Shown here in pieces: positions 3,574-14,535 of a stretch of 14,988 nt of DNA. How positions within the stretch are numbered: position 1 is the stretch's first letter; every line of letters begins with the position of its first letter. A model generated the notes under the pieces. The model saw only the letters and a program-made list of their open reading frames with translations. It had not been told where the DNA came from and ran no database searches. Source of the DNA: a bacterium (GTDB lineage Bacteria > JAMCPX01). The stretch spans positions 1-14,988 of the forward strand of contig JAJYJX010000043.1 in assembly GCA_021789095.1 (NCBI GenBank). The letters run 5' to 3'. Both the position numbers and the translations under genes were made by a program.

Positions 3574-3825
3574 ATGGATCGCACAGAAATTTACAATCTC
3601 ATTACCACATTCTTTACGGAACAATTTGAGATCCCTCACGAAAAAATTAAGCCTGCTGCCAATCTTTTCAAGGACCTTGGTCTGGACAGCATAGATGCTC
3701 TGGATATGGTCGGTATGCTGGAGTCGCAGATAAACCTTGATATAAATGTAGAGGAACTAACTCACATACGCACCGTCCAGGATGTCGTGGATTTTGTTTT
3801 CTCTAAAGTCAATGTTACCGCATGA
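3574..3825 (+). CDS. Acyl carrier protein
   Basis: An 83-residue acyl carrier protein, the usual length. The phosphopantetheine attachment motif reads LGLDSIDALDMV with Ser39 as the modified residue. The helix after it is acidic and hydrophobic as expected (MLESQINLDINVEEL). It would carry the growing acyl or polyketide chain as a thioester in the cytoplasm. ATG 3574 has ribosome site AGGGAG (3562-3567) six bases upstream. It is the first gene of a compact + strand operon: the first dehydratase starts 12 bases after its stop. The phosphopantetheinyl transferase at 6063-7547 is the obvious candidate to activate it. Its DSI rather than the DSL of housekeeping AcpP, and its placement with pathway genes, suggest a dedicated carrier, like the ApeE/ApeF carriers of aryl polyene clusters. 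Confidence 0.93.
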   Translation: MDRTEIYNLITTFFTEQFEIPHEKIKPAANLFKDLGLDSIDALDMVGMLESQINLDINVEELTHIRTVQDVVDFVFSKVNVTA

Positions 3826-3837
3826 TATCCCTTTACA

Positions 3838-4209
3838 ATGAGCGAACCCTGGGTCATCCCTGAAAAATTTATTCACTCAGCCAATGGTACAGAGGGCCAT
3901 TTTTTAATTCCCGTTCATTCTCCTTGGTTTTCCGGACATTTCCCGGACATGCCTGTTTTGCCGGCCATCGGCATGCTGGGCATGGTTTACGATACTCTTG
4001 CCGCGCATACGGCCCATAACGGTATCCGGCTAACGATCCGTGGAATGAAACGGGTCCGGTTCAGGCAAATCCTGGAGCCGGGATCGCGTTTCATAGTATC
4101 GATCTCCTTGAATACCTCAACGGATGCTTCTCAGGTTCTCTTTCATTGTGTGTCAGGCGATACGAAAGCCTGCGATGGGATTCTTCTTGTCAGCAAGGGA
4201 AACTCCTGA
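3838..4209 (+). CDS. FabZ/ApeI-like hotdog dehydratase
   Basis: A 123-residue single-hotdog protein resembling 3-hydroxyacyl-ACP dehydratases. The active-site segment reads FSGHFPDMPVLPAIGMLG (31-48), matching the FabZ pattern HFPGxPVMPGVLxxE. His34 is kept, but the position of the catalytic Glu is Gly48. Aryl polyene ApeI-type proteins also depart from canonical FabZ here, so it may be that subtype rather than a dead enzyme. Predicted role: removal of water from a 3-hydroxyacyl-ACP to give a 2-enoyl chain. The ATG at 3838 lies 12 bases after the ACP stop; no clear ribosome site is visible, so coupling to ACP translation is likely. The next dehydratase begins 11 bases after its stop. Alternative: a structural partner that heterodimerises with the ApeP-like protein. 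Confidence 0.82.
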   Translation: MSEPWVIPEKFIHSANGTEGHFLIPVHSPWFSGHFPDMPVLPAIGMLGMVYDTLAAHTAHNGIRLTIRGMKRVRFRQILEPGSRFIVSISLNTSTDASQVLFHCVSGDTKACDGILLVSKGNS

Positions 4210-4220
4210 GGACACAGAGC

Positions 4221-4673
4221 ATGTATACTATCGAAGATTTTATCCCCCACCGGGACAGGATGAGATTAATAGATGACATTGTCGAGGTCGATGATGACCA
4301 CTGTGTGACACAATCCGTTGCCTCGCCCCTCTGGCCGCTGTGCGACGGTGAGCGGATCAACTCCATCATTATCGTGGAACTTGTCGCGCAGACAGCTTCT
4401 GCCTTTGTAGGATGGCTCAGGCGCAATAAGGTGAAAATGGGTGGTAAGGGCTTTATCGTGGGGATAAAAAAGGCTGACTTTTTTGTCCCGGACATTCCGG
4501 TCGGAAGCCGTCTCAGGACTTCCTGCAAAATGCGGGTAACCCTTGACAATGCTTACGGCGAGTTCGAAGGCGACGTAAAAGACGGCAACACAAGTTATGG
4601 TCACGTACTCCTTCAGACCTTCAGCGGTCAGATGCCCGCAGCAGACAAGGGAAACCTCCTGCCAAAAACATGA
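4221..4673 (+). CDS. ApeP-like hotdog 3-hydroxyacyl-ACP dehydratase
   Basis: A 150-residue hotdog protein. Features of the ApeP-type dehydratase group are the N-terminal IEDFIPHRDRMRLIDDIV (4-21; His10 in the place of the catalytic His), VELVAQTASAFVGW (52-65; Glu53 in the helix) and GFIVGIKKADF (77-87). It would act on ACP-bound 3-hydroxy chains beside the preceding hotdog protein. I chose ATG 4221 rather than the in-frame ATG at 4146 because the longer form would overlap the previous gene by 64 bases with residues foreign to the family, while 4221 has ribosome site GAGGA (4208-4212) eight bases upstream and starts just before the conserved IPHR motif. It ends in an ATGA overlap with the ligase gene, indicating tight co-translation. 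Confidence 0.86.
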   Translation: MYTIEDFIPHRDRMRLIDDIVEVDDDHCVTQSVASPLWPLCDGERINSIIIVELVAQTASAFVGWLRRNKVKMGGKGFIVGIKKADFFVPDIPVGSRLRTSCKMRVTLDNAYGEFEGDVKDGNTSYGHVLLQTFSGQMPAADKGNLLPKT

Positions 4674-6061
4674 CACGCCAGGACGTGATTCATGCCTTTA
4701 CCCTCGGCAGCGAAGCACTGAAGGGTAAATATACCACCGGCGGGACCTCCTACAGAGAGGTTTTTGATCTGGCATCCGGCATATATGCATGGAGTTTACA
4801 TGAACAAAAAACTGACAGCCCTCTTTGCCTTGCGACGCGGGACAAGGCGCTCCTCATGGCCGCAATCCTCGCATCTCTTGCCGGCGGTCCTTTCCTGGTC
4901 CTCCCTGCATCTCTATCGGACGCTTCAATCGCTGAAACATGTCAAATAATTGGTGCAAGCGCCGTTTTATCCGATCAACCCATTGCGATACCGAAGGGCA
5001 TACAGTCCGTTCCCCTGCGTAGAGAAAGAACGGATGCACCGGCCTGGCATCTCAAGAGGAAAATAGATAAACCATTTCTGTGGTTGTATACCGGCGGCTC
5101 CACCGGAGCCCCAAAACTCTGGCCTAAAACCCCTCATAACATCATTGGCGAAGCCCTAAACCTTAAAAAGGTATTTGCCATAAACGAAACGGATATCCTT
5201 CTCTCCACCGTCCTCCCGCTCCATATTTACGGCCTGCTATTCTCGGTACTCCTGCCTTTTGTTTCTAAGGCACGCGTTATTGATGACATACCCTATTTTC
5301 CACGGGAGATTGTCCGGACAGCTGCCCGGACAAGGTGTACTGTATTCATTGGCTCGCCTATGCACTACCGGGCACTTTCCACATCTTCATTTCGCTTGAC
5401 ACATCTCAAACTCGCCTTTTCATCGGGAGGTTTTTTGGAAAAATCTCATAGTCTTCATTTTACCCGTGCCACCGGAACAGGTGTCACGGAGGTTTACGGC
5501 TCCACCGAAACAGGCGGGATTGCTACCCGTTGTATAGCAGATGGAAAATCTGCATGGCAGCCTTTTTCCTGTGTCCGCTGGACGATTGATGGAGAACGGC
5601 TCTCCGTATCGTCTCCATTCCTGTCACCGAATCTGCACATAAATAAAAAAGGGTTTTTTACTACCGGGGACAGAGCTGCGGGTTCCGGTGACGGAACATT
5701 TATCCTTCATGGCAGGGCAGACGGGATAGTAAAAATAGGCGGCAAGCGGGTCGACCTGAATGCGATCGAGCAAAAAATCAAATCTCTTCCATGGATCATG
5801 GATGCATGGGTTCTCTCTCTCCCTTCCAGGACAGGACGTGAAAACGAGATCGCTGTACTTGTCGTGACAAAAAGAACACTCCCCTCTCTCAGGAAAGCTT
5901 TTGCCAAGATACTGGAGCCCACTCACATGCCGAGACGGATCATTAGTGTCCCTTCCATCCCAACAACCCCTGCGGGTAAAAAGGACCGCCGCACAGCGCT
6001 CTCCCTCCTCTCTCAACCGGGAAACATCCCAAAGCACAAACCCCATGAGGAGGATAACTGA
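4670..6061 (+). CDS. AMP-forming acyl/aryl-CoA or -ACP ligase (ApeH-like)
   Basis: A 463-residue ANL-superfamily adenylating enzyme, somewhat shorter than the usual 500-550. Core motifs are all present: P-loop YTGGSTGAPK (140-149), VTEVYGSTETGG (272-283; A5), FTTGDRA (330-336; A7), ILHGRADGIVKIGGKRVD (345-362; A8 hinge) and PAGKKDR near residue 434 (A10 lysine). It would activate a carboxylic acid with ATP and pass it to CoA or to the operon's ACP, probably to supply a starter unit or recycle a free chain. Its length and placement after ACP-DH-DH match ApeH of aryl polyene clusters. The starter (aryl or fatty) cannot be told from the sequence by eye. It is the last gene of the + operon; its stop lies one base from the stop of the convergent operon. 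Confidence 0.88.
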   Translation: MTRQDVIHAFTLGSEALKGKYTTGGTSYREVFDLASGIYAWSLHEQKTDSPLCLATRDKALLMAAILASLAGGPFLVLPASLSDASIAETCQIIGASAVLSDQPIAIPKGIQSVPLRRERTDAPAWHLKRKIDKPFLWLYTGGSTGAPKLWPKTPHNIIGEALNLKKVFAINETDILLSTVLPLHIYGLLFSVLLPFVSKARVIDDIPYFPREIVRTAARTRCTVFIGSPMHYRALSTSSFRLTHLKLAFSSGGFLEKSHSLHFTRATGTGVTEVYGSTETGGIATRCIADGKSAWQPFSCVRWTIDGERLSVSSPFLSPNLHINKKGFFTTGDRAAGSGDGTFILHGRADGIVKIGGKRVDLNAIEQKIKSLPWIMDAWVLSLPSRTGRENEIAVLVVTKRTLPSLRKAFAKILEPTHMPRRIISVPSIPTTPAGKKDRRTALSLLSQPGNIPKHKPHEEDN

Positions 6062-6062
6062 T

Positions 6063-7547
6063 TTACGCCCCGGGAATTTCCAGGACAGTGAATAGATGAT
6101 CGTCCACAGCAGCATGGACTGCCTCAACTGCCCTGCCCTCAATTGATACAATACTTCGATCCTCTTTGATCTCCTTCAGCTCAACCCTGGACCACATAAC
6201 TGCAATCGGTATATCAAGTACCTTTGCTGCACATTCCTTTGCTGTCCAGACCCTGATTGCTGCCTGTTCATGTCCAAGTGAGGAGCGTGCACAGAGGGCT
6301 TGCTCGCTTGATGTCATATAGATATACGCTCCTTTCAGAAGATTGCCGTTAAGCCGTTCTACGTCTACACCTATGGGGTGGCGTCCTCCTACAGCAACAG
6401 CAAAGCGGTCGTCGTGAGACGCACTGCAGTAAAATTTCTGTTCGTTTCCGGACAGAATGCACGCCGGATGGATGCCGTCCGGGGCAATAGTCTCTATGAG
6501 TGCCGGATCCACGGGAACTCCGGTTTTGTAGAGGATACGCGAAAGGCGTTTGAGTGCAATCCTCGCTCCTCTGTGCCTGCTTCTTTTGCCCGGATGCCGC
6601 CTGTTCACTACTTCCAGCTCATGCGGTGACAATATTTTTTCCGCAAACGGCAAAATGCTTGCCAACTCTACTACGGAAACACCCTGGATCTTTCCCCTGA
6701 TCGCGCGGAGATCGTCCTGCCCTGCTGTCTTTACCCAGTCAGGCACAGGCATTTTACCTTTGAATACGTCCTTCATCCGCACGCCGAATGCTGCCTCGCG
6801 CAGCGCTCCGTTCCGATCATATATCCATATATCAAAATTAAGGGTGCCCTTTTCTTTGCCTCCCGGCAAGACCCTGCAAAAATAGGATTCCCCGGCTACC
6901 GTCGGGTGAATAATTGTTCTGCCGGTATAGCCTACCGGGAAAGCGATATACCCTGAATAGCGCTGTCCCCATGCGCAAGCGACGTGGAACGCCGCATCAA
7001 GGACAAACGGAGAGCCCAAAGGAGGATTGAGAGTTTCATGATGCGGCGCCTTAATGGCTGCTACGGCTCCGTCATTGAACAGGAACACGGTTCCTACGGC
7101 ATTTTGGAATGACGGGCCAAACGGGACCATCTCCGCATACAGCCGTTCAGCCGGGACCTGACAGCATATTCCTTCGGCCGCACACGCACTGTCCAGAGGC
7201 AGCGGGACAAAGGCACCTATGTCGGCAAATGTTACACGGACGTGGTCACGTACGCGTGAAATGCCGGTGCGCGATGCTTGTGCAAAAGTCCCCAGAGCCG
7301 CGGCCACTGCGCCGTTCCCCTTCACCTCGATATCTGCAATAACCTCTATCTCCGGTTTCGCGGCAGGGAGTTCAAGGAACCTGAGGAATTCGGCATTGCG
7401 GGAATTCAACACTTTCTTTCCCGGGCACCCTGCTGCTACAGTTTCGGCAAGCCTCTCAAGGGATTCCACAGCTGGATACACAGCCTGCCCCTCCACCCTG
7501 TGGTCGGCAAGGTAAGGATGGTTTCTCAGCTTTAATACCAGGCGCAT
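6063..7547 (-). CDS. PKS dehydratase - Sfp-type phosphopantetheinyl transferase fusion
   Basis: A 494-residue two-domain protein. Residues about 1-270 are a double-hotdog polyketide synthase dehydratase: LADHRVEGQAVYP (13-25; His16, the HxxxGxxxxP motif), PFGPSFQ (142-148; the YGPxF motif) and VLDAAFH (182-188; Asp184). Residues about 280-494 are an Sfp-type PPTase with SASHD (375-379), IGVDVERL (392-399) and WTAKECAAK (434-442), the Mg/CoA-binding motifs. It should both dehydrate 3-hydroxy chains and convert apo-ACP to holo-ACP. ATG 7547 is chosen: it falls 8 bases after the thioesterase stop and just before the DH motif, whereas the longer frame to 7613 overlaps the thioesterase by 58 bases. 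No good ribosome site is near, so coupling is likely. A DH-PPTase C-terminal order is known from enediyne PKSs; here it stands alone. Confidence 0.88.
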   Translation of the reverse strand: MRLVLKLRNHPYLADHRVEGQAVYPAVESLERLAETVAAGCPGKKVLNSRNAEFLRFLELPAAKPEIEVIADIEVKGNGAVAAALGTFAQASRTGISRVRDHVRVTFADIGAFVPLPLDSACAAEGICCQVPAERLYAEMVPFGPSFQNAVGTVFLFNDGAVAAIKAPHHETLNPPLGSPFVLDAAFHVACAWGQRYSGYIAFPVGYTGRTIIHPTVAGESYFCRVLPGGKEKGTLNFDIWIYDRNGALREAAFGVRMKDVFKGKMPVPDWVKTAGQDDLRAIRGKIQGVSVVELASILPFAEKILSPHELEVVNRRHPGKRSRHRGARIALKRLSRILYKTGVPVDPALIETIAPDGIHPACILSGNEQKFYCSASHDDRFAVAVGGRHPIGVDVERLNGNLLKGAYIYMTSSEQALCARSSLGHEQAAIRVWTAKECAAKVLDIPIAVMWSRVELKEIKEDRSIVSIEGRAVEAVHAAVDDHLFTVLEIPGA

Positions 7548-7555
7548 GAGGTTTT

Positions 7556-8035
7556 TTATTTCGGGAATGTCTCCCACAGATGAACGGTTTTTTTGTCTAC
7601 GGCAACAGGCCATCCCGATACTTTCATCGCACAGTGCTGTGTAAACCCGGTACAGACGATCTTACCTGTCTCCGCGTGGGCAATGATATAACGGAATGCG
7701 ACTTTGACTTTGCTTATCTCCGCGGGACGCGTATAAATCCACATGGGATCGTCGTAATACAGGGGAGAATGATAACTCACGCCGAGGTCTATAATAGGAT
7801 ATACGTATCCGCTGTCTTCCACTTCCTTGTACGGGTACCCGATATCCCTCATCAGACTTGTCCGGCCCAATTCAAAATATCTCAGATAATTGGCATGATA
7901 AACGACCTCCGAACGATCCGTATCCGCATAGAGTGTCCGGTTGAACACTTTATGCCAGACAAGCTTGCCAACAGCGTCCCGGACGAACGGAGAACCCTCA
8001 TTAAGCGCTTCCGGCTTAAACGGCTGCGGTCTCAT
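7556..8035 (-). CDS. YbgC/FadM-type hotdog acyl thioesterase
   Basis: A 159-residue 4HBT-family thioesterase. The signature LYADTDRSEVVYHANYLRYF (35-54) matches the YbgC/FadM motif, with the Asp of TDRSEVV (D40) in the usual catalytic position. It would hydrolyse acyl-CoA or acyl-ACP thioesters, either releasing the finished chain or clearing stalled ones. Aryl polyene clusters also carry a thioesterase of this type. The N-terminal 25 residues precede the fold and are unusual but coded from a well-supported start: ATG at 8033-8035 abuts the ketosynthase stop codon (8036-8038) with no gap, and AAGGGGG, inside the end of the ketosynthase gene, lies at suitable spacing. It is the third gene of the - operon. 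Confidence 0.88.
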   Translation of the reverse strand: MRPQPFKPEALNEGSPFVRDAVGKLVWHKVFNRTLYADTDRSEVVYHANYLRYFELGRTSLMRDIGYPYKEVEDSGYVYPIIDLGVSYHSPLYYDDPMWIYTRPAEISKVKVAFRYIIAHAETGKIVCTGFTQHCAMKVSGWPVAVDKKTVHLWETFPK

Positions 8036-9301
8036 CTATACCCCCTTGAATACGATACAGCAATTCGTCCCGCCGAAACCAAAGGCATTGGACATGGCAA
8101 TTTCGGACTTCTGCTTTCTCAATTCATTGGGTACAACGTCAACGTCATGAAATGCCGGGTCAGGGATGTGGTTCATTGTCGGGAGGATAATTCCTTGCTG
8201 CATACCCTCTATAGTCAGTGCGCCCTCGATTGCGGCGGCCGCTCCCAGGGTATGTCCGATCTGCGATTTATTGGACGATACAGGAATGTGCTCAAGAGCT
8301 CTGTTAAACACCTCACGCAGACAATTTATTTCATTAAGGTCACCCTTTGGTGTAGAAGTGCCGTGTGTATTTACATACCGGATATCAGCAGGACCCAGGC
8401 CCGCATCATCGATGGCCTCCTGCATTGCCCGGATAACCGTTGGCCCGTTGGGCCTTGTGAAATGATGGGCGTCCGATGTCCAGCCTACGCCTAAAACCTC
8501 GGCCCTCGGCTTGAGACCATAGATGGGAATCATTTCTTCGGCTGCCAGGACCATGACTCCTGCACCCTCGGACAATACAAAACCCTGGCGATCGATGCTG
8601 AACGGCCTGGACGCCTGTCCGGGCTCATTCCATGCACGGTCTTTTTCCGACACCTTTATTGTTGCGTTCATGTTGGCAAACCCGTGCAGGATCTCCGGCA
8701 TAATCGGGGTGTCGACTCCGCCGGCAAGCACAAAATCACTGTCACCGTCTCTTATCATTCTTGCACCAATACCTATTGCATAGTTGCCTGAAGCACATGC
8801 TCCTTGTGGAGAAAAGATGGGACCCGTGAACCCCAAAAGCATGCTTGCCTTTCCGGAAGGGAGATTGGCACAGAGATTGGGGAGAAGGTAGTTGCTGACG
8901 CTGTTTGCCCCCCTCTCTTTCAAATTGATCATCGCGGTCCTATAAGCGTCATGCCCGTTGATTGCAGAACCTATCAGACATGCGGTCCTCTCTTTTACAC
9001 CGTCAACCATCTCAAGTCCTGCATGTGCCAATGCATCCTTGCATACCGCCATTGTCAGAATTACATACATTGCGTTCCATTCCTTGGCTTCTTTCTCGCT
9101 GGAAAAATCTAATTTCGCCGGATTCCAATCAGGAATTTCTCCAACAACATTGGCCGGCGTATCCGCCTTGCATCTTGTAACACGCCTGAATCCGGTTTCC
9201 CCTTTTATGGCCCTTTTCCATGTTTCTTCCAGAGTCTTCCCCAACGGTGTTGCAACAGCATATCCTACTACAAAGACACGCCTATTTTTAGGTGATTTCA
9301 T
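8036..9301 (-). CDS. Beta-ketoacyl-ACP synthase, FabF-like (KS1)
   Basis: A 421-residue condensing enzyme of the FabF/type II PKS class, full length. The Cys-His-His triad is complete: Cys169 in GACASGNYA, His313 in NTHGTSTPKGD and His350 in NKSQIGHTLGAAAA. The C-terminus keeps NAFGFGGTN. It would condense an acyl primer with malonyl-ACP. ATG 9301 has GAGGGAGGG directly upstream, overlapping the end of the previous ketosynthase gene 9 bases away. Sequence elements such as ASRPFS.DR.GFVLSEGAG are shared with the neighbouring ketosynthase, so the two are distant paralogues. It is not a chain-length factor, since the active-site Cys is retained. Aryl polyene clusters likewise hold more than one ketosynthase. 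Confidence 0.92.
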   Translation of the reverse strand: MKSPKNRRVFVVGYAVATPLGKTLEETWKRAIKGETGFRRVTRCKADTPANVVGEIPDWNPAKLDFSSEKEAKEWNAMYVILTMAVCKDALAHAGLEMVDGVKERTACLIGSAINGHDAYRTAMINLKERGANSVSNYLLPNLCANLPSGKASMLLGFTGPIFSPQGACASGNYAIGIGARMIRDGDSDFVLAGGVDTPIMPEILHGFANMNATIKVSEKDRAWNEPGQASRPFSIDRQGFVLSEGAGVMVLAAEEMIPIYGLKPRAEVLGVGWTSDAHHFTRPNGPTVIRAMQEAIDDAGLGPADIRYVNTHGTSTPKGDLNEINCLREVFNRALEHIPVSSNKSQIGHTLGAAAAIEGALTIEGMQQGIILPTMNHIPDPAFHDVDVVPNELRKQKSEIAMSNAFGFGGTNCCIVFKGV

Positions 9302-9310
9302 GTCCCTCCC

Positions 9311-10561
9311 TCATCCGATCCTGTGAAATATTATGCAGGCATTGGCACCGCCGAAGCCGAATGCGTTTTTTAAAACATACTCCTGCTTAAGTGTTCTTGC
9401 AGACCCGGGCACACAGTCCATGCTTATTGACGGGTCAGGCGCATAGTTTATCGTTGGAAGGATCGTATCCTTCATCATCCCTTCCATGGTAAATATACTC
9501 TCCAGGGCACTGGATGCGCCCATTGCGTGGCCGATCATGGATTTATTGGCGCTTACCGGTGGGATTTTATCCCCGAAGACCTGCTGAAGAGCCATATACT
9601 CCACCTCATCCCCTAATTTGGTGGAGGCTGCATGCGCATTGACTGCACTGATGTGCGCAGGGCTGATGCCGGCATGTTTAATAGCACCATGAATACAATG
9701 CACAATCGTGTCCTGTCTGGGTGCTACAGAGTGGTAGGCATCGGCGGTCATGGACCAGCCCGCTAACTCTATAGTATATTTTAATCCGTATGCCTCGGCA
9801 AATTCCCGCGTTGACAGTATTATACATCCGGCCCCCTCTGATATTATGAATCCGCGCCTGTTCATGGAAAATGGCCTGCTTGCCCGGGCGGGCTCTTCCG
9901 GAGGGGGCTGTGTACTATTTTGATATGCACCATTCATGGTGGCAAACCCGGCCACAATGCTTTCTACAAGAGGGAAATCCACTGCCCCGCAAATGGCCAC
10001 ATCTGCCATGCCGTCCTGCAACAACATCGATCCTATGATCATCGATGTACTTCCCGTGGCACACGCCGTGACCGTGGTCACGATAGGGCCCGTGGCATTG
10101 GCAAGGATGGCTATCTTGCCTCCTACCATATTGATGCAGGAATTCGGGTTCACGTATGGCTTGGGCAATTGTCCGGATTTTACCATGGTCCTGTCCGCAT
10201 CAAGGACAGCGTCAAGCCCTCCGATGGCAGTGCTGAATGTGGTCGCTGTTCTCGGTGATAGTTCATCGGTAATTTTCAACCCGGTCTTTTCCAGTGCCCG
10301 ATGGACCACAAGCATTCCATATTTAAAAATCGGCGATTTCCAGTGTACCATTTCTCTGGGTCTTAAAAAGGGATAAGGGGTAACGTCCACGTCAGGGACC
10401 TGGCCTGCTACCTGCACAGGAAAATTATCTCTCAATGGAAATCTTGTAAGAGGGCCTATACCGCTGTGTCCCTCCACTGCTTTACTCCATTGATCCTCAA
10501 AGACAATGCCCAGGGGAGACACGAAATCATATCCCAGGACCACGGGTCTAACCATTTTCAT
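9311..10561 (-). CDS. Beta-ketoacyl-ACP synthase, FabF-like (KS2)
   Basis: A 416-residue ketosynthase, first gene of the - operon. Triad residues are Cys167 in TACATGSTS, His310 in NAHAASTKLGD and His345 in NKSMIGHAMGAS. The second motif reads NAHAAST where most FabF proteins have NTHGTST. A Pro-rich insertion (TQPPPEEP, 217-224) precedes the conserved ASRPFS segment. It may act on a different chain length from KS1 or form a heterodimer with it. ATG 10561 is preceded by GAGG at good spacing; a Met two codons on is an alternative. The upstream spacer is full of palindromes, so its promoter is not obvious; read-through from the radical SAM gene 324 bases upstream is possible. Confidence 0.9.
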   Translation of the reverse strand: MKMVRPVVLGYDFVSPLGIVFEDQWSKAVEGHSGIGPLTRFPLRDNFPVQVAGQVPDVDVTPYPFLRPREMVHWKSPIFKYGMLVVHRALEKTGLKITDELSPRTATTFSTAIGGLDAVLDADRTMVKSGQLPKPYVNPNSCINMVGGKIAILANATGPIVTTVTACATGSTSMIIGSMLLQDGMADVAICGAVDFPLVESIVAGFATMNGAYQNSTQPPPEEPARASRPFSMNRRGFIISEGAGCIILSTREFAEAYGLKYTIELAGWSMTADAYHSVAPRQDTIVHCIHGAIKHAGISPAHISAVNAHAASTKLGDEVEYMALQQVFGDKIPPVSANKSMIGHAMGASSALESIFTMEGMMKDTILPTINYAPDPSISMDCVPGSARTLKQEYVLKNAFGFGGANACIIFHRIG

Positions 10562-10587
10562 ACTCTGCCTCTATCAGTATTGAAGAA

Positions 10588-10607
10588 CCACGCTGCAATT
10601 AGCGTGG
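10588..10607. repeat. Palindrome 1 of the KS2 upstream spacer
   Basis: CCACGCT (10588-10594) pairs perfectly with AGCGTGG (10601-10607) over a 6-base loop. It is followed by GATT-like sequence as in palindrome 2, suggesting related repeat units. It lies 27 bases from the KS2 start and would form a hairpin in the leader of that mRNA. Confidence 0.6.
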
Positions 10608-10652
10608 ATTCTTCGCCGGTATGGAATTTGATAATCCTATATCTCGCCTTGA

Positions 10653-10672
10653 CCCCGCTATAAATAGCGGGG
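10653..10672. repeat. Palindrome 2 of the KS2 upstream spacer
   Basis: CCCCGCTAT (10653-10661) pairs with ATAGCGGGG (10664-10672) over two bases, a 9-bp perfect GC-rich stem. No T-run follows in either direction, so it is a repeat-type hairpin rather than a standard terminator. Confidence 0.65.
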
Positions 10673-10702
10673 ATTGCGGCGAGCATCCCGTTCAATATGT
10701 AG

Positions 10703-10723
10703 GGGCGATTCGGTGAATCGCCC
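10703..10723. repeat. Palindrome 3 of the KS2 upstream spacer
   Basis: GGGCGATTC (10703-10711) pairs with GAATCGCCC (10715-10723) over a GGT loop, nine perfect pairs. Palindromes of the form GGGGCGATTCG...CGAATCGCCCC are, to my knowledge, a common dispersed intergenic repeat in environmental bacterial genomes. Confidence 0.65.
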
Positions 10724-10759
10724 TTGCTTGGGCTTTTGCGTGCATTCTTCAGTTTTTTT

Positions 10760-10835
10760 GTCATACCCGTGAAAACGGGTATCCAGTTTTGCCGATTTTG
10801 CAAGGTTTCTGGATTCCCACTTTCGTGGGAATGAC
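10760..10835. repeat. Dispersed inverted-repeat element (REP/MITE-like)
   Basis: The left arm (10760-10786) begins GTCATACCCGTGAAAACGGG and ends ATCCAG. The right arm (10809-10835) begins CTGGATTCCCACTTTCGTGG and ends GAATGAC, so the two are imperfect inverted copies with a 22-base spacer. Each arm also folds on itself (CCCGT..ACGGG; TCCCAC..GTGGGA). This is the familiar 'GTCATTCCCGC...GCGGGAATCCAG' intergenic repeat of many proteobacteria and related phyla. It codes for nothing, and an open frame through it is an artefact. Confidence 0.8.
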
Positions 10836-10885
10836 AAACCAATCGCTTATTATCCGATAAAAAATTGCAATAACCACTCAAGGCA

Positions 10886-11887
10886 TTACCACGGGATGAA
10901 ACGGTATAATTTGGCAAACATTTCATAGACCTCGACCCAGTGCTGGAAATCCTCAGAACTCCGCATGTGCGCCCGCTTATTAACCATTACCCAGCTCATG
11001 TGTGCAGCTCCGTCTTTACACGTGGTACAATCCCGGGTAGCCGATGTGCAGCACCTATGCATAGTTTCGAGGTCAGCTCCCCATCGTATAAACCGTATAA
11101 GCCGCTTGGGCTGGGGGGCACGCGTATCCATGGGCTCGGTTACCGACGGGCATTCGGTCCAGCCCCATGTCCGGTCCAGCATCTTTCCTGTTGTGATTAT
11201 TTTGTGGTAGTACTTACTGGAGATAACGGTATTGCTGTACCTTTCCAGCATATCGTCCATTTCCTTTCGCACACGTTCAAGTATCTCAGGTGTCCACACA
11301 AAACCTTCTACATCCTCATCATTCGAAAACAACTGGAGATGGACCTTTAGCCCTGCGTCCGCTATCTTTTTTACAATACGTTCAATCGTACCCGTTCCAA
11401 CCTGCTTGGGTGTTATCGTGTACAGATAATACGTGTAAGGATCGCCCTGATAATTCTTCAGCGATATGCTGAAGGTGTCCTTGCCGCGCAGAAGCTTCTC
11501 TTCGTGCTCATCACCCCACAGGGAGATCCCGACCATCATATCAGGGAACCGGTCCCTGGGGACTTTGATGAGGCCGTTTGTTGCACAATATGTGGGGATG
11601 CGTTTGTAAAATGCCTCAATTCTGTCAAGAAAGAGCGTTGGTTCCCCGCCGATCAATATAGCAAGGGTTACCCCTCTTTCCTTCTCCTTCTCTACAAATT
11701 TCTCCCATTTGCCGAGGTCTGCCTCTTCTTGCAGTTTGTGTTCGTCGGAGGAAAAAAAGAAACAGCCTTTACATCTCAGGTTGCACTTGTTTGTTACATC
11801 GTAGATGGAACTGCGTATATTGAGATTAGCAATTGCGTTATACCGTTTTTTCCATTCTCCGCTGATAAGTGTGCTTACAGTATGCAT
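10886..11887 (-). CDS. Radical SAM enzyme 1 with C-terminal cysteine set
   Basis: A 333-residue radical SAM protein. The CX3CX2C motif CNLRCKGCFFF (Cys35, 39, 42) binds the [4Fe-4S] cluster that cleaves S-adenosylmethionine; ILIGGEPTL (78-85) is the GGE motif that holds the SAM amine. Later cysteines occur as C246, C279-C280, C287 and C290, which could bind an auxiliary cluster. The second radical SAM protein at 12567-13655 has the same arrangement, plus shared ISLWG and TNGL segments. The reaction is unknown: the family spans C-C bond formation, methylation and epimerisation. ATG 11887 lies 11 bases after the lipoprotein stop, with a weak purine-rich ribosome site, so the two are probably co-transcribed. 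Oxygen-sensitive chemistry is expected, fitting an anaerobe. Confidence 0.88.
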   Translation of the reverse strand: MHTVSTLISGEWKKRYNAIANLNIRSSIYDVTNKCNLRCKGCFFFSSDEHKLQEEADLGKWEKFVEKEKERGVTLAILIGGEPTLFLDRIEAFYKRIPTYCATNGLIKVPRDRFPDMMVGISLWGDEHEEKLLRGKDTFSISLKNYQGDPYTYYLYTITPKQVGTGTIERIVKKIADAGLKVHLQLFSNDEDVEGFVWTPEILERVRKEMDDMLERYSNTVISSKYYHKIITTGKMLDRTWGWTECPSVTEPMDTRAPQPKRLIRFIRWGADLETMHRCCTSATRDCTTCKDGAAHMSWVMVNKRAHMRSSEDFQHWVEVYEMFAKLYRFIPW

Positions 11888-11898
11888 TCTTCTCTTTC

Positions 11899-12492
11899 TC
11901 AGCGGGCGGAAACTGCGCGCTCGAATCCCCGGTCTTCCAACATCGTTTTTACCATCTTATCGATCATCCTGTATGCCCGCTTCTCAAGAAGCCGTGCATC
12001 GGTCGTTGCCGCGGGTTCCATTGTTATCGTGAAACGCTTTTGGAAAGGTGCGCCTTTCCCGTGCACGCTGATCATATACTGGAATTGCTGGTCCGTAATA
12101 GACTCCAGGGTAATATCAACCTCCGGAGCAGTTGTAGCCTGGTCCATGCTATATACCTTAAGCCCTGCACGCTCCAGTGCCTTTTGAATACTGTACCAGA
12201 AATATGACGTCAGACTTGGCCAGCTTTCATAGGTAATAGTTCCTTCAGGGTTATAGTAGTACCATGTTGTTGTGTTGTTTGCCTGATTATCTATATTGGC
12301 CAAATATATTGATTTTTTATGATACAGGGAAGGCGTTCTTCCCAATTCCGGAAAATAATTTTCTTGCTTGATCTCTACCTTTTCCGAGCCCCCTCTGATA
12401 GCGTGTCTGCACCCCCCGGCAAATAAAGCTATAACTATAGCCAGCGTGCTTATCCCTGCAAATACACCAAAAATGCTATTTCTTTTCCGCAT
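11899..12492 (-). CDS. Predicted lipoprotein of unknown function
   Basis: A 197-residue protein with a lipoprotein signal: RKR at the N-terminus, a hydrophobic stretch (residues 8-25) and a lipobox-like AGGC ending at Cys28. After lipidation it would sit in the inner or outer membrane facing the periplasm. The mature part has PEVDITLESITDQQFQYMI and other beta-strand-like segments; the overall pattern (short lipoprotein, conserved ALERAGLKV) recalls auxiliary lipoproteins of lipid-transport ABC systems, but I cannot assign a family. The ATG at 12492 has a near-consensus ribosome site, AAAGGAGGAG (12496-12505). It is placed between the two radical SAM genes, 74 bases after one and 11 before the other. 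Aryl polyene clusters also include an envelope lipoprotein, but similarity to that one is not visible. Confidence 0.78.
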   Translation of the reverse strand: MRKRNSIFGVFAGISTLAIVIALFAGGCRHAIRGGSEKVEIKQENYFPELGRTPSLYHKKSIYLANIDNQANNTTTWYYYNPEGTITYESWPSLTSYFWYSIQKALERAGLKVYSMDQATTAPEVDITLESITDQQFQYMISVHGKGAPFQKRFTITMEPAATTDARLLEKRAYRMIDKMVKTMLEDRGFERAVSAR

Positions 12493-12566
12493 AAGCTCCT
12501 CCTTTAGGTTTAATTGTTATTTTTAAAACAGAAAATATTCCATTGTCCTGTAGAATTTGTATTACA

Positions 12567-13655
12567 TTAAAACCCGGGGGGTTGCTCTATGTGAGAACAC
12601 AGGTTTTCCCCCTTCTCATATCCTTTAACCCAGACGGCAAGGTACGTATCCACGTAGTCAAGCCATGACTTGAAGATCTCCGGGTTCCCGGTATGCCTGC
12701 TTAGCTTTGATGTAACTATAGCGCTCCCTGCGGCATAATGCCTGCAGTCATTGCAATCCGTGTCCGGAACACAACAAGCCGCGGCTCTATCCCATGTAAG
12801 ATCGGTTCTGTATTGCCGGAATGATCTGCCGAGTCCGAATGTAACGGATGGGTTCATGCGTGGATACGGGCACGAAAATAACTGGTACAGGCTGCTCTGA
12901 TGGGTATGAACAACTGTATTATAATATGAAAACAACACCGCCTCCGGGTGTTTTTCCATCAGATCTATCATGACACGGCGGACCTTATTCAGGGTTTCCG
13001 GGGTATGCAGCAGATTTCCGGAATAGTCCAGCGGTGTGGAAAACACATTGAACGTGATTTTGCAGTTGTGCGAGGCCAGAATCCCGGCAACTTCATTGGC
13101 TTCATCAATGGTTTCCCGGCAAAAAGTGTATACGAAAACCGCACGCGGGTCTCCCGCGTAATTATCGATCTGTTTTTTTAGAAGGTCCCTGGCTTTTCTA
13201 ACCCTGTAACTGGTTTCATCGTTGCCCCACACTGAAATGTGTATCTTATATCCGACTGATTCCGGAATACGCTTCAGTCCGTTCGTAGCTATACAACCTA
13301 ATGGGATTTCCTGGTAACACGCTTTCAGCAGATCGGGTACCAGGGAAGGCTCTGCCCCGGCAAGAACCACGAATGTTATGCCTCTCTTCTTCTCCTGACG
13401 GAAAAGGTCGCTCCATGCCTGAGGATCAAGATTTTCCCGGGTAAATTGTTTTTCGCCATTATAGTAGTAACAACCATCGCACCGCATATTACATCGTGTG
13501 GCCATGTCATACGTTGATTCCCTCAGAAAAAAGTATTTCCTGACCTTTTCCCATCGTTCACGCACACGTGTTTCCATGAGAAGGTCTGCGAATTTCCATT
13601 CTCTGGATAACGGTAAATTTTCCTGAAAATTTAATGCTGTATTGTCTGACCCCAT
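12567..13655 (-). CDS. Radical SAM enzyme 2, paralogue of the neighbouring one
   Basis: A 362-residue radical SAM protein. CNMRCDGCYYY (Cys55, 59, 62) binds the catalytic [4Fe-4S] cluster; VLAGAEPSL takes the place of the GGE motif, with Gly-Ala-Glu. A C-terminal cysteine set (C262, C294-C295, C301, C304) mirrors that of radical SAM enzyme 1. Other shared segments are KKRGITF, CIATNGLKRIP, ISVWG and YAGDPRA. I chose ATG 13655, preceded by AGGGG (13666-13670), rather than the TTG at 13691 that would add 12 residues. A -35-like TTGACA (13697-13702) lies upstream but the 16-base-spaced -10 (TAATTT) is poor. It lies 74 bases before the lipoprotein gene on the same strand. The substrate may be an ACP-bound chain from the adjacent pathway; that is inference from position. 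Confidence 0.86.
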   Translation of the reverse strand: MGSDNTALNFQENLPLSREWKFADLLMETRVRERWEKVRKYFFLRESTYDMATRCNMRCDGCYYYNGEKQFTRENLDPQAWSDLFRQEKKRGITFVVLAGAEPSLVPDLLKACYQEIPLGCIATNGLKRIPESVGYKIHISVWGNDETSYRVRKARDLLKKQIDNYAGDPRAVFVYTFCRETIDEANEVAGILASHNCKITFNVFSTPLDYSGNLLHTPETLNKVRRVMIDLMEKHPEAVLFSYYNTVVHTHQSSLYQLFSCPYPRMNPSVTFGLGRSFRQYRTDLTWDRAAACCVPDTDCNDCRHYAAGSAIVTSKLSRHTGNPEIFKSWLDYVDTYLAVWVKGYEKGENLCSHIEQPPGF

Positions 13656-13791: not shown

Positions 13792-14535
13792 TTATTTCAA
13801 AACCTGGATTATAGCGTGCCCCTTAAGGATCAACTTATTATGCACGGCGATAAACCAGGATAAATTGGGCGCGGTCATGCCGAAATCCGTAAACGCAGCA
13901 TTGATTATCGCAGAAATGACAAACTCATTATTTCCTATTTTTTTAAAGGCTACAGCAGTGTCAAAGTCTTTTGCCCCGCCTGCTACGGTAAGTCTGCCGG
14001 TTACATGAATCTCGCCATTATCTGCGTTGATAGCATTGAGGATATCCTCTCTGAGTTTTCCATCTACCAGCAGCTCTTCTCCGCCTAACCGCAACACCAA
14101 TGGAGCGTTTTCTTTATCCGGAATAAGGATATCAACGGTCATATTCTGAGGATCGGCTTTAATGTCCACGTTTTTATTGAGCGGACGCAGGGCCTTTGAT
14201 ATGCTTTCTCCCCCGATTTTCAATATTTCAAAGGTTATTTCCGGATATTTGTCGGACTTCAAATACAGCGTTTTTACCGACCAGTCTCTCATAGGTCTGT
14301 CGGTTTTAAATCCAGAGGACGAGATCATAAGCTTTGCTGCAGCGCTTTCAGGAGAGGCGAGCAGTTTAATGGAAAGGTCATCATTGCGTCCAATTACCGT
14401 TTTTAGGGCAGACCCCAGATTGGTTTCATGTGCCTCATACGTGACATACGCATTGGTAACACGGAATTCTATGACCGGTCTCTGCTGCGCCGTGATAAGC
14501 ATTGAATGGAGTAATAAACCTGCCAGGAAAATCAT
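13792..14535 (-). CDS. YceI-like secreted lipid-binding protein
   Basis: A 247-residue protein with a hydrophobic N-terminus (residues 2-15) suggesting export, possibly cut after the Ala of LITAQQ; it lacks the usual N-terminal Arg/Lys, so cleavage is uncertain. The mature part follows the YceI pattern: IEFRVTNAYVTYEAH (23-37), KTDRPMRDWSVKTLYLKSDKYPEITF (the MRD..L....YPxIxF hallmark), then HVTGRLTVAGGAKDF and AFTDFGMTAP near the C-terminus. YceI beta-barrels bind polyisoprenoids or other long lipids in the periplasm. About 60 residues between the YPEITF and TGRLTV parts are longer than in simple YceI proteins. ATG 14535 has ribosome site AAAGGAGGT eight bases upstream. Its place in the - strand run beside lipid-type enzymes suggests, but does not prove, that it carries or shields the product. 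Confidence 0.75.
   Translation of the reverse strand: MIFLAGLLLHSMLITAQQRPVIEFRVTNAYVTYEAHETNLGSALKTVIGRNDDLSIKLLASPESAAAKLMISSSGFKTDRPMRDWSVKTLYLKSDKYPEITFEILKIGGESISKALRPLNKNVDIKADPQNMTVDILIPDKENAPLVLRLGGEELLVDGKLREDILNAINADNGEIHVTGRLTVAGGAKDFDTAVAFKKIGNNEFVISAIINAAFTDFGMTAPNLSWFIAVHNKLILKGHAIIQVLK

Follow-up and report, generated by a model that had tools for sequence, protein, structure and literature searches.

A conserved radical SAM gene pair and its ketosynthase partners in a locus with aryl-polyene-type genes

The stretch of DNA analysed here (the window, 14,988 bases) is the whole of contig C171 in a metagenome-assembled genome (MAG) of 2.15 Mb, 203 contigs and 92% completeness. Two convergent operons meet near position 6062. 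The plus-strand operon encodes, in order, an acyl carrier protein (ACP), a small hotdog dehydratase, an ApeP-like dehydratase and an AMP-forming ligase. The minus-strand operon reads YceI-like protein, radical S-adenosylmethionine (SAM) enzyme rSAM1, lipoprotein, radical SAM enzyme rSAM2, ketosynthases (KS) KS2 and KS1, thioesterase, and a dehydratase (DH) fused to a 4'-phosphopantetheinyl transferase (PPTase). Our subject is the radical SAM pair, which is conserved together with these ketosynthases across phyla and in relatives lies beside genes of the kinds found in aryl polyene clusters. The genes are:

3574-3825, plus strand: acyl carrier protein, ApeF-like (PF00550, E 9e-14; 45% identity to E. 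coli ApeF)
3838-4209, plus strand: small FabA/FabZ-type hotdog dehydratase, ApeI/FabZ-like (PF07977, E 1e-6; 33% to E. coli ApeI, E 4e-6)
4215-4673, plus strand: ApeP-like dehydratase (PF22817, E 5.7e-5, just under the Pfam curated cut-off; 30% to E. coli ApeP, E 2e-8)
4670-6061, plus strand: AMP-forming ligase, ApeH-like (PF00501, E 6e-21; 28% over 435 amino acids to E. coli ApeH, E 2e-25)
6063-7613, minus strand: double-hotdog dehydratase fused to 4'-phosphopantetheinyl transferase (PF21089, PF14765, PF01648)
7556-8035, minus strand: YbgC/4HBT thioesterase, ApeK-like (PF13279, E 9e-13; TIGR00051 above cut-off; 33% to E. coli ApeK)
8036-9301, minus strand: ketosynthase KS1, FabF-like (catalytic C-H-H present; own clade, 100/100 support)
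9311-10561, minus strand: ketosynthase KS2, FabF-like (catalytic C-H-H present; own clade, 100/100 support)
10886-11887, minus strand: radical SAM enzyme rSAM2 (PF04055)
11899-12492, minus strand: predicted lipoprotein (no Pfam match), between rSAM1 and rSAM2
12567-13655, minus strand: radical SAM enzyme rSAM1 (PF04055, E 1.4e-6)
13792-14535, minus strand: YceI-like protein, lipid-binding fold (PF04264, E 2e-8), which heads the operon in the window's family

The first-pass annotation had named the ACP, the ApeI-, ApeP- and ApeH-like proteins, two FabF-like ketosynthases, the thioesterase and two radical SAM genes, and each of these lies where it was placed and has the domains assigned to it. 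The lipoprotein it reported is likewise present, though between the two radical SAM genes and not after them.

The set is stable within the window's family. Genes for rSAM1, rSAM2, the ketosynthases and the DH protein occur in 9/9 family genomes, and the order YceI-rSAM1-rSAM2-KS2-KS1-TE-DH (TE, thioesterase) is constant wherever the contig permits; in G008 the operon is divided between two short contigs. Identity to the window within the family is 87-91% for rSAM2, 79-89% for rSAM1, about 90% for KS1 and 58-73% for DH/PPTase. The YceI-like gene adjoins rSAM1 in seven of the eight family relatives (the contig of the eighth stops there), and none was seen in the Desulfobacterota loci examined. 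A homologue of the lipoprotein is 89% identical in G004, and others are present in loci L079 and L093. One relative has a second, shorter rSAM1-like frame (G003:C29:21377-22165), which is 76% identical to residues 2-264 of the window's rSAM1.

Conservation extends well beyond this family. A scan of one genome per species, covering 84,980 species, turned up at least 443 rSAM2 relatives, and the best 80 loci, at 71-87% identity, were examined; they belong to Desulfobacterota, Spirochaetota, a MAG labelled Myxococcota and others. Outside the family, rSAM2 is 71-79% and rSAM1 58-68% identical to the window. Among the best 80 loci, rSAM1 is found in 78, KS2 in 70, KS1 in 66, the thioesterase in 56 and the DH protein in 53, many of the missing genes being explained by contig ends, and the prevailing order is rSAM1–rSAM2–KS2–KS1–TE–DH. 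In 56/64 loci, tblastn places an ACP gene immediately before rSAM1. The first-pass annotation had proposed checking whether the radical SAM genes are ever next to the ketosynthase operon, and across phyla the pair does adjoin ketosynthase genes. The synteny of radical SAM and ketosynthase genes in all nine family genomes and in most of the 80 loci is therefore not a matter of chance.

Genome-wide counts tell the same story. In a sample of 395 Desulfobacterota genomes, centred on a genome itself picked as a carrier, rSAM2 was found in 28 and KS2 in 27, with 27 common to both. The two genes share a contig in 26/27, separated by gaps of 12 to 3,927 bases (25 within 1,023), and lie on two contigs in G564. 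Within the family of locus L139 (Desulforhopalus), 49/93 genomes match at E <= 1e-20, G816 by a distant fragment only. In a domain-wide genome sample, matches to the pair were confined to the window's family and a distant rSAM1-like protein in G036, G183 and G318, which are of unrelated family. This lone protein is full length in G036 (L067:16310-17473; 33% identity), where its gene adjoins those for an HD-domain protein, a further radical SAM protein and cytochrome oxidase, without ketosynthases.

The two radical SAM enzymes are paralogues with about 30% identity to one another. rSAM2 carries the motifs CNLRCKGC and CCTSATRDCTTC, and rSAM1 carries CNMRCDGC and CCVPDTDCNDC. The CxxxCxxC motif is retained in 67/67 rSAM2 and 69/73 rSAM1 orthologues, and the C-terminal cluster CC-x5/6-C-x2-C in 67/67 and 73/73, respectively. 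Despite these conserved C-terminal cysteines, no family model of SPASM or twitch type scores over cut-off for either protein; no NCBIfam model reaches its cut-off, and none of the curated models and solved structures searched names the pair. AlphaFold models (pLDDT 88 for rSAM2, 80 for rSAM1) match SkfB, BlsE, SuiB, EpeE and viperin, in the case of rSAM1 by Foldseek; for both proteins these are general radical SAM folds, with Z <= 17.8 at 18% identity for rSAM2. Such matches between predicted models and solved structures reveal the fold of the two proteins, not their function.

KS1 has the motifs ACASG, VNTHG and SQIGHTLG. In a maximum-likelihood tree, KS1 and KS2 form two sister clades, each with 100/100 support, away from both ApeO and ApeR; ApeO groups with fusions of a ketosynthase to a chain length factor (KS-CLF), and ApeR with other ketosynthases of these clusters. 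The tree carries a long-branch warning for ApeO; with that caution, it rules out KS1 and KS2 as orthologues of ApeO and ApeR. Known aryl polyene clusters are defined by two ketosynthase types, ApeO-ApeC and ApeR (PMC8358021). Neither KS1 nor KS2 is of the ApeR type, and the ApeR-like ketosynthases in relatives are other genes.

Conserved motifs are also present in the carrier protein and in two of the dehydratases. The ACP has a DSI phosphopantetheine site, read from the sequence, and alignment shows that the small hotdog dehydratase retains the GHFP histidine. The DH/PPTase protein has intact catalytic motifs (HRVEGQAVYP and DAAFH in the DH part, GVDVE and WTAKE in the PPTase part). Judged from protein length, this fusion exists in about 20 of 51 relatives and the remainder have the DH alone. 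In the relative G002 an ACP gene is adjoined by genes for an ArsA-type ATPase and a phytoene-desaturase-like FAD oxidoreductase (L063:17044-19775), and in G004 a choloylglycine hydrolase-family gene stands next to the DH/PPTase gene in place of the ligase operon (L065:9123-10283).

In BLASTP comparisons with the aryl polyene proteins of E. coli CFT073, window matches to ApeF, ApeI, ApeP, ApeH and ApeK span 28-45% identity, and the ACP, the ApeI- and ApeP-type dehydratases and the ApeH-type ligase of aryl polyene clusters are all present. Domain searches of the window's genes found no ketoreductase, LolA, MMPL, glycosyltransferase or acyltransferase, as the first-pass annotation had stated; yet in relatives such genes stand beside the same module. 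There, the neighbours include a ketoreductase 48% identical to ApeQ, a KS-CLF fusion 37% to ApeO, a further ketosynthase 40% to ApeR, a glycosyltransferase 35% to ApeJ, an ApeD-like acyltransferase (LPLAT), LolA, an MMPL-methyltransferase fusion, two ACPs (ApeE- and ApeF-like), B12 radical SAM proteins, a polysaccharide deacetylase and a phytoene-desaturase-like enzyme. The MMPL exporter with a C-terminal methyltransferase domain is seen in L127 (10601-13684) and its family in 14 loci, the domains having been checked in L127 alone. The fused KS-CLF (ApeO-ApeC), one half of which is CLF-like, adjoins the module in many Desulfobacterota and is absent from the window.

In the window's family, genes for KS-CLF and for an aromatic amino acid lyase sit at a second locus. 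An ACP-ACP-KS-CLF arrangement with fused KS-CLF is found in six of the eight relatives, in five of them with an FAD enzyme. Six relatives carry the lyase (in G002, PF00221 at E 6e-157 with the ASG triad); at least one of KS-CLF and lyase is present in 7/8. Next to the lyase locus, a FakA-like DAK2-DegV fusion, possibly a fatty acid kinase, was seen at L187:14557-16284 and L188:1913-3634, and also in L129. Among the Desulfobacterota genomes, KS-CLF occurs in 18/28 that are rSAM2-positive versus 1/48 negative, and a lyase not of the HutH type, a class split off by score (about 480-525 bits versus more than 649 bits for HutH-like proteins), in 11/28 versus 1/48. One or the other is present in 25/28 carriers versus 2/48 non-carriers.

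The aryl-polyene genes next to the module in relatives, together with the second locus of KS-CLF and lyase, therefore lead us to read the window as carrying some of the genes of an aryl-polyene-type type II pathway that has gained a conserved module of radical SAM and ketosynthase genes; we hold this reading to be somewhat probable. The pathway type given by the first-pass annotation is supported, and its aryl-polyene link is strengthened by the ApeO/ApeC-, ApeR-, ApeQ-, ApeJ-, LolA- and MMPL-type neighbours and the lyase in relatives. Its 'recognisable aryl-polyene core', however, over-reads KS1 and KS2, because their clades are separate from ApeO and ApeR. Relative to the aryl polyene clusters of E. 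coli CFT073, Xenorhabdus and Acinetobacter, the likeness lies in the ACP and the ApeI-, ApeP-, ApeH- and ApeK-like proteins of the window and in the ketoreductase, KS-CLF, ApeR-type ketosynthase, glycosyltransferase, LolA and MMPL proteins of its relatives. The differences are the radical SAM pair, the separate FabF-like clades of KS2 and KS1, the fusion of KS and CLF, the DH(/PPTase) protein and, in the window's family, the spread of the genes over two loci. Flexirubin clusters (Chitinophaga pinensis, PMC3992019) similarly have an aromatic amino acid lyase and a ligase as the likely starter route; unlike them, the present loci have the radical SAM module, and no dialkylresorcinol genes were recognised.

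Several observations weigh against this reading. KS-CLF and the lyase were not found in the window's own, incomplete assembly, and among rSAM2-positive Desulfobacterota the KS-CLF fusion is missing in 10/28 and the lyase in 17/28. The ApeP-, LolA- and ketoreductase-type families are each recognised in just 5/25 long loci. Four loci (L092, L097, L101, L115) carry the pair without KS2-KS1 behind it; in the first three, the pair is followed by an MMPL gene and glycosyltransferase and/or acyltransferase genes. The fold matches of the pair are general ones (RiPP maturases, that is, enzymes of ribosomally synthesised and post-translationally modified peptides, as well as BlsE and viperin). Finally, the co-occurrence counts take no account of genome relatedness, and Fisher values for them overstate significance because the genomes are related.

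Building on the observed gene content, domains, synteny, co-occurrence and intact ketosynthase and DH catalytic residues, we infer a working scheme that is conditional as to its substrate, every catalytic step, its product and, above all, the radical reaction. The ApeH-like ligase, whose likely role is starter loading, would place an aromatic starter, in relatives probably derived from the aromatic amino acid lyase, onto an ACP. A polyene would then be built by the ApeO/ApeC-like KS-CLF (at the second locus in relatives), a ketoreductase and the ApeI/ApeP dehydratases, and a further, distinct elongation would fall to KS2 and KS1, working together with the double-hotdog DH. That rSAM1 is immediately preceded by an ACP gene in most loci points to an ACP-bound substrate, and our best guess is that the radical SAM pair modifies an ACP-bound acyl chain. 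rSAM1 and rSAM2 would abstract hydrogen from this intermediate and alter the chain, most likely by C-C bond formation or dehydrogenation. The thioesterase may free the product or pass it on, and the LolA/MMPL-type proteins of relatives could carry it to the envelope.

Alternatively, the pair may make or tailor the aromatic starter or a head group, for example by replacing O2-dependent ring chemistry in anaerobes, and leave the polyene chain untouched. The occurrence of the module in sulfate reducers, syntrophs and spirochaete MAGs (by record titles), the co-occurrence of the non-HutH lyase and the nearby B12 radical SAM genes are consistent with this. The position of the ACP gene before rSAM1 argues against it, as does the fact that the tightest linkage of the pair is to KS2/KS1, not to the lyase, and we regard this alternative as unlikely.

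In another alternative, the pair would cyclise a polyene carried on an ACP to give a ladderane-type or otherwise cyclised lipid, which would make the cluster a counterpart, in further anaerobes, of the sets of radical SAM and type II fatty acid synthesis (FASII) genes proposed for the ladderanes of anammox bacteria. The idea arises because of the kinds of genes that Rattray et al. 2009 reported (PMC2649909) and because antiSMASH makes 'ladderane' calls in Desulfobacterota; according to the authors of the latter work, these clusters may have unknown functions when they occur outside anammox bacteria (PMC9902471). In PMC2649909, FASII clusters of Kuenenia and Desulfotalea psychrophila are described with two radical SAM genes and several FabF, along with FabZ, FabG, ACPs, a CoA ligase, a phytoene-desaturase-like oxidoreductase and a glycosyltransferase; the Kuenenia set also has a polysaccharide deacetylase. 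Our loci share these kinds of genes, the match being by gene kind; the thioesterase is not named in the text of that paper, and a DH/PPTase protein was not noticed in it. Whereas the ladderane set has a non-canonical FabF without C-H-H, KS1 and KS2 both keep these residues. Moreover, D. psychrophila is reported in PMC2649909 to have produced acyclic polyenes and zero ladderanes, and Kuenenia candidates expressed in E. coli gave no ladderanes, the Kuste3342/3343 proteins being undetected (PMC4790861). A ladderane-type or otherwise cyclised product seems quite unlikely.

It is similarly doubtful that two separate pathways are simply neighbours, one for an aryl polyene and the other an independent radical SAM-KS variant of fatty acid synthesis for membrane adaptation. 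The distinct FabF-like clades of KS1 and KS2, the carriers without a KS-CLF fusion, and the PlsY-like and LPLAT genes nearby would fit such a division. Yet in L092, L097 and L101, which have no KS2-KS1 behind the pair, the pair still adjoins genes of aryl-polyene kind, and the presence of KS-CLF or lyase in nearly all carriers and hardly any non-carriers speaks for one pathway. It is highly improbable that rSAM1 and rSAM2 are RiPP maturases placed beside lipid genes by chance, even with SuiB, SkfB and EpeE among the structure matches, given the near-perfect co-occurrence and adjacency with KS2 and that no precursor-peptide gene was recognised, no systematic search for one having been made.

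The left part of the window encodes an acyl-CoA dehydrogenase, an MshEN-domain protein and an alpha/beta hydrolase, outside the conserved set. Between rSAM2 and KS2, a stretch of 324 bases (10562-10885) contains a palindromic unit twice, at 10760-10786 and 10809-10835, similar to GTCATTCCCNNGAAANNGGGAATCCAG and, from its sequence, resembling an intergenic repeat of REP type (repetitive extragenic palindrome) or MITE type (miniature inverted-repeat transposable element). A repeat search found no direct repeats in the window, an Rfam scan found zero RNA families, and comparison with PHROGs gave nothing informative. Promoter-like sites are slightly over chance level and terminator-like sites at chance level.

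Gene clusters that combine FASII with radical SAM genes were reported as early as 2009 (PMC2649909). In the literature covered, which largely excludes subscription papers, we found no description of this radical SAM pair, of the ketosynthases that constantly accompany it or of its link with aryl polyene genes.

Taken together, a conserved radical SAM pair joined to fatty-acid-like genes in many anaerobes suggests a radical-modified lipid. rSAM2 is more than 70% identical across phyla, and the pair nearly always stands beside its own ketosynthases or aryl polyene genes. Carriers make up about 7% of the sampled Desulfobacterota genomes and about half of one family, with cultured species among them; culturable carriers include Desulfogranum japonicum and strains of Desulforhopalus. 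The pair thus marks a probable unknown lipid of anaerobes and can serve as a marker for it, and it offers a testable setting for radical SAM action on carrier-bound acyl chains, which is an open point in ladderane biosynthesis. As a long shot, rSAM1 and rSAM2 might be a new radical SAM family able to form C-C bonds, as rings or cross-links, within an aryl polyene held on an ACP. The product would be a cyclised lipid new to chemistry, and the anammox ladderane enzymes would be distant members of the family; if so, ladderane-type chemistry would become testable in culturable sulfate reducers.

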